Below are positions 10,741-27,717 of a DNA stretch of 29,388 nt, one piece after another. Every line of letters starts with the position of its first letter. Position 1 is the stretch's first letter. A program made the position numbers and the translations under genes. Location of the stretch: positions 1 through 29,388 of IMG/VR virus record IMGVR_UViG_3300022698_000381. One strand, written 5' to 3'. Source of the DNA: a virus. Below the pieces are notes generated by a model. It ran no database searches. It saw only the letters and a list, made by a program, of their open reading frames with translations, and was not told the DNA's origin.

Positions 10741-11643
10741 TTATTCTGGAAAAAGTGACATGAAACAAGCCAGCGTAAGTCCAGCCCTCCCATTGTTATA
10801 AAAAGGCTTCCTGAATTCGTAAATAACTTGTGCTGCAGAATCATCCTTTTTCCCAGACAACAAAACAGAGTTCATATATCCTAAAACCGCATAACGAACA
10901 CTTTCAACATCTTTATCTTTGATTTGTTTCAGAATCTTAGCACAATCAGACCAACTAAACCCTTTTAATAACCCCCTACACAAATCAATTATTTCTTTGT
11001 CCTCTTCATCTCCTACTTCAATTATTTTAAGTGCTTTTTTTGTTTCAACCCCCAGAACCTTTTCAAGCAAAACTATTGCCTTTCTAGCCGATCCCATACA
11101 ATTTTCTGATATTTTTTCTAATACAATTTCATCAATATCAGCTTTCTCACTCTGAATAATTTTTGAAATTATTTTATAAATTTGTGCATTTGAAAGAAAA
11201 TCAAACTTATACTTTTTACTTCTTGTCTGTATAGCAGAAGGAATTTTCTTTTCTTCTGTAGTGCAAATAAAATAATAAACAAAATCAGGGACATCTTCAA
11301 AAGGCTTTAGCATGGCATTCCAAAAATCTGACGTGCATTTATGTGCCTCATCAATAATATAAACAACTTTATCTTTTAATAACGGTTTATATTTTGTTGA
11401 TTCAATTATTTCTCTTGCTGTATCAATACCCCTATTATTTGCTGAATTATATTCTTCGACAACCGCGCCAATCATTGACGCACAAATTCTTGCCGCAGTA
11501 GTTTTTCCACAACCACTAGGGCCTGTAAAAAGAAAAACATGTGAACGATTTTCTACAAACTGCGTTTCTAAGCTTTTTATTTGATCTCTATTTCCTACCA
11601 TATCCTTAAAAGTCTTTGGCCTGTACTTAATATATAAACTCAA
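10741..11643 (-). CDS. Clamp loader ATPase (DnaX/gp44-like)
   Basis: 300 aa, read from a TTG at 11643 with AGGAGG 6 nt upstream; it overlaps the polymerase stop as TTGA. The start LSLYIKYRPKTFKDMVG is the classic clamp-loader beginning. Walker A is GPSGCGKT (41-48), Walker B VVYIIDEAHK (93-102), and sensor 1 FICTTEEKKIP leads into a TRSKKYKF element close to the SRC motif. This AAA+ subunit would load the sliding clamp encoded at 14186-15283 onto primed DNA. No separate delta-type subunit was seen in the window. Confidence 0.9.
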   Translation of the reverse strand: MSLYIKYRPKTFKDMVGNRDQIKSLETQFVENRSHVFLFTGPSGCGKTTAARICASMIGAVVEEYNSANNRGIDTAREIIESTKYKPLLKDKVVYIIDEAHKCTSDFWNAMLKPFEDVPDFVYYFICTTEEKKIPSAIQTRSKKYKFDFLSNAQIYKIISKIIQSEKADIDEIVLEKISENCMGSARKAIVLLEKVLGVETKKALKIIEVGDEEDKEIIDLCRGLLKGFSWSDCAKILKQIKDKDVESVRYAVLGYMNSVLLSGKKDDSAAQVIYEFRKPFYNNGRAGLTLACFMSLFPE

Positions 11644-14192
11644 AATTTTCCTCCTTTCAAAATTCCACAATCAGTCATCTCCGACCAATTACCATTCACT
11701 TCTGATCTTTCCTTTTCAATTTTCAAAGGTACCATTATCCAATCCCAATATTCCCTAATTTTCTTTGTACCATATTCAAAAACAATGCTGTCTATCTCAT
11801 CTTCTTCTTCTGGATGCACGTCCATTACAAGAGCATCGTGTATTTGCCCAATTATTTTACTTCTTTTAATTTTTCTCTTTTTGAGCTCCTTCGAAACTCG
11901 AATTAAAGTCCATAAAAGACAATGAAAAGCAGAACCCTGTATAGGATAATTACAAAGTTCATTCTTAGTCATATATCCTTGATATTTAAAGCCCGTGTAA
12001 GAATTTACAAATCCTCTTTTCAAATATTTATTATAAAAATCCTTTTTCCAATTAGCATACACAGAAAATTTTTCCCATAAAGAATATTCCACCTGACGCA
12101 CATGTTCAATAAAATCAAAAAAATCACAAATGCCTTTTTCTTTTAAGGATGCTTTTGTATAATCAGGCATGTCTTCCCAGAGACTTGGAGCAATTTTTAC
12201 ATAGTAATCTCCATAAAACTCTGCAAAAACAAAATCATTTTTAGCCACAAACCTTTCTACAGAATCAATATCCTCTTTAAGAAATAAAAGTTCTGCCTGG
12301 TCCCTGTGCATATCAGCACCTTCACTAATAATATAATCAATCAATACAGGGTCTTTATTATAACAGGCTGATATACAAACTTCCAATTGCTTATAATCAT
12401 ATTCAATCAACCGATTACTTTCTCTTGGCACAATAACTTTTCTTATGATTTTTTTTACTTCCTTATCCCTCTTAGGGATGTTTTGGAAGTTAGGAGAAGA
12501 CGAAGAAGATCTAAAAGTATCTGTAGTATATAACTGATAAAAAGGATGTATAAAACCATCCACAACTTCCCTTCTAAATTGATCTATATAATCAGCAGCT
12601 TTATCCCATCTTTTCCACTCCAAAATATCTTTTACAAAAGGAAAATCAATTTTTGACAAAGCTTCTTTATCTAGCTTGGGCGCTCCTGTAGGTGTAAGAT
12701 TGTTTTTATCCTTTTTAACTTTAAGTATATCAAAAAGAAGATGCTGCAAATCAGCAGGACTTGTATACTTAAACCTTTTCTTTCTATCCCATTTCTTAAC
12801 TTGATCAGACATTCTTATCTTTTCATCTAATCCAACAAGCTTTTCTTCTATCTTTATCTTTGTCTTATTAATAAGATCAACATCAACTCTAATTCCATCC
12901 AATTGCGCCTTTGCCAAATACTTGCTTCCTTCAATAAGCAACCCCAGGCCCTTTTTCTGCCTTTCACTCAATGCACCACAAAAAAACTCATACAATTTAT
13001 AGCACAAAAGGGAATCCAAACCATTATAAAGCAATACATCATTTAAAGGGGCTTCATCAATGCGATTAAAAGAATTATCTGATTTTTTATTTTCTCCTGA
13101 TTTTTTTGATTTTAAATAAACATCAACAGATTCATCGTATCCAAGAATTCCAAAAAGAATATAAGACCAATATTTTAACCCCTTCCTTCTCTTATTATGA
13201 AAACAATGGGCAGCTAACATAGTATCAAAATTATTAACACCCATAGAATATCCAAAACAAACAGTTGTCCACATAGACTCAAAAGGGAAATTATGTGCAA
13301 TTTTCAAAGAATCATTTTTTTGTACTTCCCGCCATTTAGCCCTAAATTCTTCATCTTCAAAATTAGGAAATGCAAAAGAAAATAATCCATTTGAAAAAGA
13401 AATAGTTCTTATCTTATGCCCTTCCCTTTGTGGTTTAATGCCTGTAGTTTCATAATCTTCAGCAATAACAGAATTCTGCAATGCATGTTCTTCTATAACC
13501 TTTACAGCTTTTTCTTTATCTTTGATTACAAAAACATCAGAAATATAATTATGGCCGTAAAAAGAAGTTTGGCATTTTTCTATAATATTCCTTAGCCCTC
13601 TCTTAAATTCATTATGTAAAGACACATTACCTTCATTTCTTACTCCAACATAAGAAGGATGATTCAAAACACCAACCCACATATTTAAATTTTGATCAGG
13701 AATACAACATCCAACAAAATCTTTAAAAGAATGTCCAGATAAATGCCTCCTTATTCTCCATCCTAAAAGACTATTAAATGCAATAGCTCCTAAAAGGATG
13801 ATCCCTTTTGGTTCCAATTCCTTAATTGTTTTTAATAAATTCTGTCTGCAAGCCTCAATTTCATTATTTTTTGGTGTTCTGTTATGTGGTGGTCTGCATA
13901 ACACAGCGTTTGTCTTCCAAAAATCTGCATCTAAATCATATCCCAAACCATCCAACACCCCTCTAAAATAAATTCCAGCATCACCTACTAATGGAATCCC
14001 TTGAGAATCCTCAACCCTACCAGGAGCTTCTGCAACAAACAAAATACCCAAACCCCCTTTTCCATGTCTTTTCATTTTTGGGGTTTTGCAAGAAGAGAAA
14101 AGCCCGCAAGTAGGACACCCAACAGGCTTTATCTTTTTTTCAAGGACTGTGTCTCCCTCTCCTCCCAAAAAAAACGCCTCTTGCTTCAACAT
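11640..14192 (-). CDS. Uracil-DNA glycosylase-DNA polymerase A fusion
   Basis: 850 aa. Residues ~20-205 are a family 4-type uracil-DNA glycosylase: 4Fe-4S ligand pattern Cys26-x2-Cys29 plus Cys99 and Cys115, AEAPGRVED (54-62), PLVGDAG (67-73), CRPPHNRTP and NHPS (177-180). Residues ~220-400 are a 3'-5' exonuclease (DYETTG with Asp246/Glu248; HNFPFE 300-305; Y389...D393). The rest is a family A polymerase: motif A EYDYKQLE (Asp599), motif B R647 to FYG (~661) and motif C IHDALV (Asp786, with Ala where Pol I has Glu883). SPO1-like phages have a similar fused architecture. The start overlaps the clamp stop by 7 nt. It is the replicative polymerase, possibly scanning for uracil. Confidence 0.9.
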   Translation of the reverse strand: MLKQEAFFLGGEGDTVLEKKIKPVGCPTCGLFSSCKTPKMKRHGKGGLGILFVAEAPGRVEDSQGIPLVGDAGIYFRGVLDGLGYDLDADFWKTNAVLCRPPHNRTPKNNEIEACRQNLLKTIKELEPKGIILLGAIAFNSLLGWRIRRHLSGHSFKDFVGCCIPDQNLNMWVGVLNHPSYVGVRNEGNVSLHNEFKRGLRNIIEKCQTSFYGHNYISDVFVIKDKEKAVKVIEEHALQNSVIAEDYETTGIKPQREGHKIRTISFSNGLFSFAFPNFEDEEFRAKWREVQKNDSLKIAHNFPFESMWTTVCFGYSMGVNNFDTMLAAHCFHNKRRKGLKYWSYILFGILGYDESVDVYLKSKKSGENKKSDNSFNRIDEAPLNDVLLYNGLDSLLCYKLYEFFCGALSERQKKGLGLLIEGSKYLAKAQLDGIRVDVDLINKTKIKIEEKLVGLDEKIRMSDQVKKWDRKKRFKYTSPADLQHLLFDILKVKKDKNNLTPTGAPKLDKEALSKIDFPFVKDILEWKRWDKAADYIDQFRREVVDGFIHPFYQLYTTDTFRSSSSSPNFQNIPKRDKEVKKIIRKVIVPRESNRLIEYDYKQLEVCISACYNKDPVLIDYIISEGADMHRDQAELLFLKEDIDSVERFVAKNDFVFAEFYGDYYVKIAPSLWEDMPDYTKASLKEKGICDFFDFIEHVRQVEYSLWEKFSVYANWKKDFYNKYLKRGFVNSYTGFKYQGYMTKNELCNYPIQGSAFHCLLWTLIRVSKELKKRKIKRSKIIGQIHDALVMDVHPEEEDEIDSIVFEYGTKKIREYWDWIMVPLKIEKERSEVNGNWSEMTDCGILKGGKF

Positions 14193-24629: not shown

Positions 24630-24655
24630 AAAAAACCATTTTTAATAGGTTTTTT
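24630..24655. terminator. Weak bidirectional hairpin
   Basis: AAAAAACC (24630-24637) and GGTTTTTT (24648-24655) are perfect complements around a 10-nt loop that contains the stop codon of the initiator gene. On the minus strand it resembles a weak Rho-independent terminator, or a boundary before the repeated promoter-like motif. The stem has only two G-C pairs, so confidence is low. Confidence 0.35.
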
Positions 24656-25991
24656 TAAATTTTGTTTCATACCCATGCACCAAATTCAAAAGACAATCAG
24701 GCTCTAATTCTATATTATGATTAGATTTAACCCATTCAACAAATAATTTCCATGTTTTGTTTCCATACCCAAAGTGTCCCACAGTCCAGGATGATTTCCA
24801 TGTCTCCCTAAACTGATCTATTAAATCCAGAAGGTGTGTAAATGTAGCCACTTTCGAATTCCAATCAACTCCCGACATTTGATTATATCTATAAAGTATA
24901 TCATTAACTTCATCGTACCAATTTTTCAAAATCGACAGTTTGGGCCAAAATTTATTCCCATCCCAGCCTAATTCATCTCTCATGCTTTCAGCAAATTCAT
25001 AATCATCTTTATCAAGAGATTCTATAATTTTCTTTGTTATAACATTTTGTGTCTCTTTAGGCTCATTAAATATACAATAGAGAAGCCATGATTTTTTTGT
25101 CTTATAATTATAACAAAAATCGGCCACCGACTTAGTCAAACAACGCTTATCAAAAGGCCAAAACCCTTCTTTCATCATAGCAGCATAATTTTTTACAGCA
25201 CCTATAATAATAGGCTCAAGTTTATCAGAAGGAATCATCTCGAATGATCCAGTTTTTTCCCTCCTGCTCAAAAGATTATCAAAATCAATCCCGTTTTTTT
25301 CCACCCATGTTGGATCAAACAAATATTTCTCCTTAAGGGAGCCGTCCTGCAAAGCAGCAAGGAAATCCTCCGCCTTAAAATATGTTTTTGTTGTCTTATC
25401 ACTTTCAGGAAGTTTATTTTTAAACTTTGCTAGTTTCTTAGCTCTTTTTATCACTTTCAGAAAATATTCATTTGGAGATCGTTTTGAATCCCGTAGGGAT
25501 TCTTTACTCTTAGTTTCTGAGTTATTGGTATTAGAGTAACATTGTATTCTAGTCTTTGTTTCCACTTTTGGGGAGGGACCCTTTCTCCCTATTGGAGGGG
25601 GGGTCCCCTTCTTATCGGGAGAGTGGGGTATCTTTTTTTGAGGAGAGTGATTGGTATTAGAAACAAGATCCGAGTACGCTTTTTCTGTCAATCTATAATA
25701 TGTGTATACACCATCAGCACCTCTTTCCAGGTGCATGTCTAATATCCCCTTCTCAACTAGAATTTTAAGTCTCTTTGCAAGAGCATTTCTGTTTTTTATA
25801 CCTAAAATCGGCATTTCATCTATAATATTTTGATAAAAAAACCAAAAAAATGTCTTGTTCTCATAGATGATGCTATTCATCTTCCCGCTTGAAATGAAAT
25901 TCATCATAAATCGCAGCAGAACAGCGTCTTTTGCATCTAATCCATTTTTAATTAGACCCGCTTGTGAAAACCCTTCGATACAATATTGCAT
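24642..25991 (-). CDS. Replication-initiator-like protein
   Basis: 449 aa. Residues about 20-105 look like a winged-helix initiator domain (LDAKDAVLLRFMMNFISSG, then RNALAKRLKILVEKGILDMH). A Pro/Ser-rich linker (about 110-185) joins a helical C-terminal domain (about 185-449) with WPFDKRCLTKSVADFCYNY. Lambda O and several plasmid/phage initiators have this split shape: DNA-binding N-terminus, linker, then a helicase-recruiting C-terminus. The DNA for the linker carries origin-like repeats (25486-25661). GGAGG lies 4 nt before ATG. It heads the replication operon, behind a long inverted repeat. Family not proven. Confidence 0.6.
   Translation of the reverse strand: MQYCIEGFSQAGLIKNGLDAKDAVLLRFMMNFISSGKMNSIIYENKTFFWFFYQNIIDEMPILGIKNRNALAKRLKILVEKGILDMHLERGADGVYTYYRLTEKAYSDLVSNTNHSPQKKIPHSPDKKGTPPPIGRKGPSPKVETKTRIQCYSNTNNSETKSKESLRDSKRSPNEYFLKVIKRAKKLAKFKNKLPESDKTTKTYFKAEDFLAALQDGSLKEKYLFDPTWVEKNGIDFDNLLSRREKTGSFEMIPSDKLEPIIIGAVKNYAAMMKEGFWPFDKRCLTKSVADFCYNYKTKKSWLLYCIFNEPKETQNVITKKIIESLDKDDYEFAESMRDELGWDGNKFWPKLSILKNWYDEVNDILYRYNQMSGVDWNSKVATFTHLLDLIDQFRETWKSSWTVGHFGYGNKTWKLFVEWVKSNHNIELEPDCLLNLVHGYETKFKKTY
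25486..25661. other. Origin-like repeat cluster inside the initiator gene
   Basis: Three structures overlap the linker coding region. GAGTTATTGGTATTAGA (25519-25535) recurs as 25645-25661 with one mismatch. GGAGAGTG occurs at 25618-25625 and 25642-25649. GGGACCC (25575-25581) pairs with GGGTCCC (25601-25607) in a G/C-rich hairpin. GAATCCC-GTA-GGGATTC (25486-25502) is a perfect inverted repeat. Lambda ori lies in the equivalent part of its O gene. No adjacent long AT-rich unwinding run was measured. Confidence 0.4.
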
Positions 25992-26007
25992 ATAACCTCC
26001 AATAAAA

Positions 26008-26089
26008 AACCCTTTACAGGGAGGAAGGGCTGTCAGAAAATAGGCAACAAAACAAAATCCTAAAATCTGCTTCCCCCCTGTAAAGGGTT
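26008..26089. repeat. 20-bp inverted repeat with 42-bp loop in the initiator leader
   Basis: Arms AACCCTTTACAGGGAGGAAG (26008-26027) and its complement at 26070-26089 differ at one base. It lies in the leader of the initiator gene, ending 17 nt from its ATG. Inside the loop CAACAAAACAAAA could instead pair with the T-rich GTTTTGTTTT downstream on the plus strand, so competing structures are possible. It might be a terminator, an attenuator or an origin element. Confidence 0.5.
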
Positions 26090-26152
26090 GTTTTTGTTTT
26101 GTTTTTTCAAAAAAAACACAGCCTTCTTAAGGATTGCATAAATTTAATATTT

Positions 26153-26171
26153 AGTCAATATTTTATTGACT
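26153..26171. promoter_or_regulatory. Palindromic operator between outward-facing -35 boxes
   Basis: GTCAATA-TTT-TATTGAC (26154-26170) is a perfect 7-bp inverted repeat. Each arm ends in a TTGACT reading outward, at 26166-26171 on the plus strand and 26153-26158 on the minus strand. A dimeric repressor here could control both directions. The plus-strand side has a good -10; the minus side does not. Confidence 0.5.
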
Positions 26172-26194
26172 TTTTTTATGTTTTTGTTTATATT
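26166..26194 (+). promoter_or_regulatory. Promoter for candidate small RNA
   Basis: TTGACT (26166-26171) and TATATT (26189-26194) are separated by exactly 17 bp. Initiation would be near 26201, right at the base of the first hairpin. The -35 overlaps the operator palindrome. Confidence 0.65.
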
Positions 26195-26200
26195 TTGAAC

Positions 26201-26269
26201 AGCTGAACCCTTCAGCTATCATCATCCCTTGATCTTTGCAGGACATTCTTATTGGATGTCCTGCTTTTT
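26201..26269 (+). ncRNA. Candidate small RNA with two hairpins
   Basis: A non-coding stretch framed by a promoter (26166-26194) and a strong terminator. It opens with a 5' hairpin, AGCTGAA-CCC-TTCAGCT (26201-26217), continues with a ~20-nt single-stranded linker (26218-26237), and closes with the 9-bp terminator stem (26238-26264) and T5. There is no reading frame with an SD inside. The next promoter begins at 26272, so this is a self-contained transcription unit of about 69 nt. The linker is complementary to the ribosome-binding site of the gene at 26647. I know no named RNA family for it. Confidence 0.55.
26238..26269 (+). terminator. Rho-independent terminator of the small RNA
   Basis: GCAGGACAT (26238-26246) and ATGTCCTGC (26256-26264) are perfect complements around a 9-nt loop, followed by TTTTT. 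This is the best terminator in the window. Confidence 0.8.
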
Positions 26270-26271
26270 AC

Positions 26272-26300
26272 TTGACAAAATTGTGAGAAGGGTTTATATT
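26272..26300 (+). promoter_or_regulatory. Promoter of the 26325-27717 genes
   Basis: TTGACA (26272-26277) and TATATT (26295-26300) are 17 bp apart. The start would be near 26307, followed by AAGGAGG before ATG 26325. It begins directly after the small-RNA terminator. Confidence 0.8.
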
Positions 26301-26324
26301 CTATATAGATTAAAGGAGGATGTT

Positions 26325-26636
26325 ATGGTAAAAGATACTGATTTTTGGTATATTCTGGAAAGTTTAAAGGAACTGGCTGTTTGGATTTATAAATCTCCAA
26401 TTCCTGAAAAGGATAAAGAATCAAAAATTTTTTCTATTTTTGAGGATTTTCGTGTTGTTGGAAAGGAAAGATATTTTTCCTATAAAGAATGCACAAATAC
26501 CGATGAAAAAGGAGAAGTTTGTTTTGAAGTTATGAATATAGAAAAAAAGGGAGAAAATTGTTTTTTTGTTTGTCCAAGATGCGGACATACAGTTAAAGCT
26601 ATAAGAGTATATACATATACTCTGGCAGATGATTAA
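26325..26636 (+). CDS. Small Cys-rich protein with zinc-ribbon tail (103 aa)
   Basis: ATG 26325 is set by AAAGGAGG 4 nt upstream and by the promoter; an earlier ATG would lie upstream of the predicted transcript start. The N-terminal ~50 residues are helical (FWYILESLKELAVWIYKSPI). The C-terminal half has Cys56, Cys66, Cys79 and CPRCGH (Cys83, Cys86, His88), consistent with a single zinc ribbon. The stop (TAA 26634-26636) sits inside the next gene's SD area. A small regulator or adaptor is plausible, but no family is recognised. Confidence 0.65.
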   Translation: MVKDTDFWYILESLKELAVWIYKSPIPEKDKESKIFSIFEDFRVVGKERYFSYKECTNTDEKGEVCFEVMNIEKKGENCFFVCPRCGHTVKAIRVYTYTLADD

Positions 26637-26646
26637 GGAGGATGAT

Positions 26647-27717
26647 ATGATAGCTTACAAAGTTTTTGATAAGAATTTTTGTTGTAGGGGTTTTCAGTAT
26701 AAAGTAGGGAAAACATATGAAATAGATAAAAGTCCAATTCTATGTGAAGAGGGATTTCATGCATGTAAAAATTTAATTGATTGTTTTTCTTATTATCCAT
26801 TCAATTCAAAGAATAAAGTTGCAATTGTTGAATTGCTTGGAGAAATAAAAGGGGATGAACAAGACAAACAAGTAACAAATAAAATTCGGATAGTCAAAGA
26901 GATTTCTTGGCAAGAAGTTTTATCTATTGTAAATACAGGCAAAAATTGTACTGGAAACAGGAACTCTGGAAACTATAACTCTGGAGACAAGAACTCTGGA
27001 CACTGTAACTCTGGTGACAGGAATTCTGGAGACAAGAACTCTGGAGACAAGAACTCTGGAGACTGGAATTCTGGAGACTGGAATTCTGGAGACTGGAATT
27101 CTGGAAACTGGAATTCTGGAAACAGGAATTCTGGAAACTGGAACTCTGGAAACAGGAACTCTGGAGACAAGAACTCTGGAAACAGGAACTCTGGAGAAAA
27201 GAACTCTGGAAACAGGAACTCTGGACACTGGAACTCTGGACACTGTAACTCTGGAGACAAGAACTCTGGACACTGTAACTCTGGAGACTGGAATTCTGGA
27301 GACAGGAACTCTGGTGACAGGAATTCTGGAGACTGGAACTCTGGAGACAGGAATTCTGGAGACAGGAATTCTGGAGACAGGAACTCTGGAAACTGGAACT
27401 CTGGGAACTGTAACTCTGGTGACTGGAATACAAAAGAACCTGAAAAAGTTTATTTCATGAACACTTTGATTGATAAAAAAGAATTGGATGCTATTAAATG
27501 TTCTGGAGCATATTGTATTTTAAATAGATTTTATCCAGTTAAATTTAGAGTTCGTACTTCATCCGGTAAATTTGGAGATTTTAAATATCTTCCTTTTAAA
27601 AGCTCTTTTAAACATTTTTGGAGAAATCTTTCAATAGATGAAAGAAAGACAATTATAAATATGCCTTACTTTAACAAAAAAGTCTTCTTTGAAATTACAG
27701 GGGTTAAAATAAGTTAA
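26647..27717 (+). CDS. DUF7666-like protein with 31-unit pentapeptide array
   Basis: 356 aa from ATG 26647, with AAGGAGG 5 nt before; an upstream ATG at 26629 would overlap the SD. Residues ~1-95 (YKVFDKNFCCRGFQYKVGK, FHACKNLIDCFSYYP, VAIVELLGEI) match a phage domain I recall as DUF7666. From 26962 the gene encodes 31 NSGxx units, in which only residues 4 and 5 vary (D/N/H/E, then W/R/K/C/Y). This resembles the N-x-G type Pentapeptide_2 repeats, which form elongated beta-helices. A C-terminal ~95-residue domain follows (NTLIDKKELDAIKCSG). It ends adjacent to a convergent gene at 27718. Role unknown; DNA mimicry is one idea. Confidence 0.75.
   Translation: MIAYKVFDKNFCCRGFQYKVGKTYEIDKSPILCEEGFHACKNLIDCFSYYPFNSKNKVAIVELLGEIKGDEQDKQVTNKIRIVKEISWQEVLSIVNTGKNCTGNRNSGNYNSGDKNSGHCNSGDRNSGDKNSGDKNSGDWNSGDWNSGDWNSGNWNSGNRNSGNWNSGNRNSGDKNSGNRNSGEKNSGNRNSGHWNSGHCNSGDKNSGHCNSGDWNSGDRNSGDRNSGDWNSGDRNSGDRNSGDRNSGNWNSGNCNSGDWNTKEPEKVYFMNTLIDKKELDAIKCSGAYCILNRFYPVKFRVRTSSGKFGDFKYLPFKSSFKHFWRNLSIDERKTIINMPYFNKKVFFEITGVKIS
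26962..27426 (+). repeat. Tandem 15-bp repeat array (31 units)
   Basis: 31 consecutive units with AA(C/T)TCTGG(A/T/G) at fixed phase and two variable codons. Ten units carry GAATTC. Serine is always TCT, so the DNA itself is homogenised, not just the protein. Such arrays readily gain or lose units. Confidence 0.95.

Follow-up and report, generated by a model that had tools for sequence, protein, structure and literature searches.

A predicted phage small RNA with complementarity to the translation start of a neighbouring pentapeptide-repeat gene

A small RNA (sRNA) of about 69 nt is predicted on the plus strand of a phage genome record, and its linker is complementary to the translation start of a pentapeptide-repeat gene lying further down the same strand. 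The reading that we favour, with a confidence slightly above even, is that this phage-encoded RNA pairs with the start of the pentapeptide gene and would repress its translation initiation. Confidence is kept near that level because no related genome carrying the RNA was found.

The locus and the anatomy of the predicted small RNA

The window analysed is the whole virus record, i.e., 29,388 bases with 34% G+C. Its replication module (family A polymerase, RecA-like protein, helicases, clamp loader and others) is carried almost entirely by the minus strand, and a two-gene unit on the plus strand (26325-27717) is oriented against these surroundings. Gene 1 (26325-26636) encodes 103 aa with a C-terminal zinc-ribbon-like CPRCGH motif. 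The pentapeptide-repeat gene (26647-27717) encodes 356 aa, i.e., DUF7666 plus Pentapeptide_2 repeats. No defence or NCBIfam family was found for either gene. The promoter assigned to the unit (26272-26300, +) reads TTGACA-17-TATATT and matches the consensus at 11/12 positions.

The sRNA segment (26200-26268, +; ends approximate) is located 5' of the two-gene unit and is divergent from an initiator-like gene that starts at 25991. It is composed of a 5' hairpin (26201-26217; 7 bp, CCC loop), a linker and an intrinsic terminator (26238-26264; 11 bp followed by TTTTT). A putative promoter, TTGACT-17-TATATT, precedes it (26166-26194, +), on the basis of a consensus match (10/12). The predicted fold of the 69-nt segment is far more stable than that of shuffled versions (z = −5.8). 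When both strands of the window were scanned, it was the only place where a promoter is closely followed by a terminator. The segment thus has what is expected of a base-pairing sRNA, i.e., a promoter and an intrinsic terminator of its own (both predicted from sequence) and a length of tens to hundreds of nt. The small RNA at 26200-26268 is a convincing prediction; these elements are present in the DNA, and it is from them that we infer its expression. Rfam gave no match at the gathering score in the window, and nothing credible at E-values up to 5 around the locus.

Several features of the surroundings must also be mentioned. The ORF at 11640-14192 (−) joins a family A DNA polymerase to an N-terminal domain of the uracil-DNA-glycosylase superfamily (PF00476, PF03167). 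The initiator-like protein (24642-25991, −) has a weak match to phrog_270 and, over its N-terminal part, shares 35-38% identity with proteins from Tetrasphaera phage TJE1 and Fusobacterium phage phiFN37. Directly upstream of its gene lies a long inverted repeat (26004-26093; 24-nt arms, 92% complementary). On the minus strand this region has a predicted fold of −44 kcal/mol (z = −5.1) ending with a T-run just before the SD of the initiator-like gene, i.e., an attenuator-like element in the leader. A terminator-like hairpin of 14 bp, rich in G+C, is also found at 25575-25607 (+), within the low-complexity linker of the initiator-like gene.

Complementarity to the pentapeptide start and its rank

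The pairing segment of the RNA (26214-26234, AGCTATC-ATCATCC-CTTGATC) is mostly single-stranded linker, its first 4 nt being part of the 5' hairpin. It pairs with 26631-26655 (+) in three 7-nt blocks, at −23.4 kcal/mol. The first-pass annotation had given these blocks by position and sequence, together with two 2-nt bulges on the mRNA side and a single G-U pair, and each of these details was recovered exactly. The target also covers what had been claimed for it, namely the stop of gene 1 (TAA, 26634-26636), the SD (AAGGAGG, 26635-26641) and the start codon of the pentapeptide gene (ATG, 26647-26649), and it extends over codons 2-3. One bulge, GA (26638-26639), sits within the SD, and the other, AT (26647-26648), corresponds to positions 1 and 2 of the start codon. 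The term «cis-encoded antisense» used in that annotation does not hold in its strict sense, which implies the opposite strand and full complementarity: the RNA and its target share a strand, the RNA being encoded some 0.4 kb upstream without target overlap, and its partial complementarity is made of bulged blocks. «Same-strand, neighbour-encoded base-pairing sRNA» describes it better.

When the linker was compared with the start regions of the window, the pentapeptide gene was the best (−23.5), the next one being at −17.8. The start region of gene 1 reaches only −15.6, i.e., about 8 kcal/mol weaker, despite 16/18 bases alike around the SD; the idea that the linker would match any SD was rejected on that ground. 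With the full RNA, and with the structure of both partners taken into account, the target ranks first among 2344 tiles drawn from both strands, the RNA's own antisense being set aside (−20.9 vs. −17.7). Start regions taken from other phage loci (n = 81) reach −18.7 at best. A control based on natural sequences was also used: the start region of each of 37 genes was compared with the 21-mers located 60-600 nt upstream of it, and the best was retained. The pentapeptide gene obtained −24.2, its best 21-mer being exactly the linker, and the runner-up −16.7; the other genes range from −9.2 to −16.7 (mean −12.8, sd 2.3). A Gumbel tail leads to about 0.002 per gene, or about 0.06 if multiplied by 37.

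Shuffling gave less uniform results. With duplex energies, shuffled linkers equal the observed match with a frequency of 0.004 (dinucleotide) and 0.0003 (mononucleotide) for the two downstream genes, and of 0.008 and 0.003, respectively, for all start regions. With cofold energies, none of 500 shuffled targets reaches the observed binding. For the two downstream genes, 12/700 shuffles of the whole sRNA and 38/700 shuffles of the linker only (about 0.05) do so; for the best of 38 mRNAs, the values are 5/120 (linker) and 36/120 (whole sRNA). The linker-only shuffle leaves the hairpins intact, and it is strict because a dinucleotide shuffle retains the ATC repeats. For the best of all mRNAs, the whole-sRNA shuffle was discounted as a control, since the RNA loses its own structure and binding is thereby inflated. 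The first-pass annotation had picked the match by eye and had proposed shuffled controls as a check. The check is mostly passed: most controls place the match well above chance, and the strictest ones (38/700, 5/120 and 36/120) are weak. The complementarity to the target, which for a base-pairing sRNA should exceed chance, does so in the rankings and less clearly in the strictest controls. The match is thus above chance by most controls, but, being a post hoc pick with weak strictest controls, it is not beyond doubt. Pairing within the cell is what this complementarity and its rank suggest.

The joint fold revealed a second block, absent from the first-pass annotation: the sRNA opens its 5' arm (26202-26213), which pairs collinearly with 26684-26698 (+), past a small mRNA hairpin. 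Removing the mRNA beyond 26660 lowers the binding from −21.2 to −13.6. The arm by itself gives a modest match (equalled by 2.2% of tiles), and the site with which it pairs encodes RGFQY, a conserved motif of the family also found in two distant relatives (L002 and L004); for these two reasons the second block may be fortuitous.

Relatives and alternative readings

No homologue of the sRNA was found by exact linker and hairpin patterns in IMG/VR. Searches of IMG/VR with the initiator-like protein, the 103-aa protein, the polymerase and the helicase did not lead to the RNA, nor did a search of GTDB genomes with the initiator-like protein, or DNA and protein searches against phages and plasmids. 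The 103-aa product of gene 1 has no relative found in IMG/VR or among phages and plasmids. The distant relatives of the pentapeptide gene (L002-L006, L009 and L010) sit in other settings; the nearest relative of the target domain, from Clostridioides phage AR1086-1, is 60% identical and also in a different setting. Another IMG/VR contig (L011) has eight replication proteins in common with the window (26-40% identity) and is, judged from these proteins, a distant relative sharing the replication module. No match to gene 1 or to the pentapeptide gene was found in the 20.9 kb of it that were examined, and the initiator-like gene is absent from its whole record.

The small RNA may be real and its match to the pentapeptide gene coincidental, the true target being a host mRNA or a phage gene outside the record. 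We regard this as unlikely. The finding was made post hoc, the linker-only control stands at about 0.05, the virus record is incomplete, the linker is short and ATC-rich, and RBS sequences have GGAGGATGAT-like motifs in common. On the contrary, the target comes first among start regions, tiles, upstream segments and other phage loci, and the match falls on the neighbouring gene. Another reading, to which we give very little credence, would make the RNA a cis-antisense directed against the leader of the initiator-like gene, which is divergent from it; plasmid copy-number control is the model, and the pentapeptide match would then be secondary. The RNA does adjoin and oppose that gene (phrog_270), it would have perfect complementarity to any leftward transcript with a start beyond 26268, and a promoter-like site is found in that direction (26326-26298, 9/12). 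That site is weak, promoter-like sites are about as numerous as expected by chance (18 vs. 12.6, sd 3.6), and transcription from a second weak leftward candidate (26084-26057) would begin only past the sRNA region.

The remaining alternative keeps the pairing and changes its nature. If the terminator were leaky, the linker would lie in a read-through 5' leader that folds back onto the pentapeptide start, about 400 nt away. A separate regulator would not exist, and the two promoters would give rise to messages with the second gene either open or closed. The RNA and the two genes are indeed in tandem on one strand, and in the predicted fold of 26200-26760 the mean linker-target pairing probability is 0.975, with the terminator hairpin still formed. 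Against this, ribosomes on gene 1 would separate the two partners, the terminator is strong (11 bp plus T-run) and a better promoter for the genes comes just after it. The last two points lead us to favour a separate RNA, and the leader appears improbable to us. It must be noted that the first-pass annotation had put forward both a regulator and a leader pairing within one transcript: a regulator acting on the pentapeptide start stands as the best reading, and the sequence fits action in trans as well as in cis while favouring the former.

Proposed mode of action and comparison with known systems

According to the favoured reading, i.e., repression by a separate small RNA, the sRNA would be made from its own promoter and ended by its own terminator. 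Its linker would pair with the SD, the start codon and the first codons of the pentapeptide gene on the message issued from the next promoter. The open CCCUU in the linker is where pairing would probably begin; from there it could spread into the 5' hairpin and then to the second block, 38-52 nt into the pentapeptide gene. Since the site covers the SD and the start codon, pairing there would block initiation: ribosome loading would be prevented and less pentapeptide protein made relative to gene 1, whose translation would continue, so that the sRNA would shift the ratio of the two products. The stop of gene 1 is within the duplex, so ribosomes finishing gene 1 would melt it; the sRNA would then act mainly on lightly translated messages, or on re-initiation. 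Like this complication, two further features speak against the favoured reading: the 5' hairpin takes up the first 4 nt of the pairing segment, and bulges fall on GA within the SD and on AT within the start codon.

By analogy, the sRNA would act like P22 sar or like the neighbour-encoded OrzO, OhsC and IstR-1; membership in none of these groups is claimed. The sar RNA (68/69 nt) represses ant and interferes with translation initiation by pairing (PMC12197685). Both RNAs are phage-encoded, equal in length and paired (here by prediction) with a phage mRNA at initiation, but the target of sar is an antirepressor gene instead of a pentapeptide-repeat gene, the pairing here is bulged, and the comparison is based on size and proposed mode of action rather than on sequence. 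In the OrzO/zorO, OhsC/shoB and IstR-1/tisB pairs, the sRNA is encoded beside its target, has limited complementarity to it (18-19 nt for OrzO and OhsC) and pairs via its 5' part (PMC3919570). The present RNA is likewise encoded beside its putative target with limited complementarity. However, orz genes are divergent from zor whereas the RNA is here upstream on the same strand, and zorO, shoB and tisB encode small hydrophobic toxins whereas the present gene codes for a repeat protein of 356 aa and its pairing site is formed by the SD and start codon. Type I toxin-antitoxin systems have a small hydrophobic toxin, typically <60 aa, and the size and nature of the target product thus place the pair outside that class. 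Lambda OOP, a phage RNA of 77 nt transcribed from a promoter of its own, reduces the level of one phage protein (PMC12197685); the present RNA resembles it in having its own predicted promoter and in being proposed to lower one phage protein. OOP is the antisense of the cII gene itself, whereas the sRNA does not overlap its target.

The collinearity with the target over two blocks suggests a highly speculative origin, which we consider very improbable: the sRNA would have arisen as a shortened inverted copy of the start region of its target, and would set the ratio of the zinc-ribbon-like protein to the DUF7666/pentapeptide-repeat protein in a self-contained phage cargo module. If true, it would be an arrangement like that of type I toxin-antitoxin systems, controlling a large repeat protein.

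To our knowledge, a phage target is known for few phage-encoded sRNAs. A short literature search found no phage sRNA controlling a pentapeptide-repeat gene. The present case offers a precise RNA-target pair, predicted in an uncharacterised phage. If it is real, the two-gene unit would be cargo whose second product must stay low, with a possible effect on the host.
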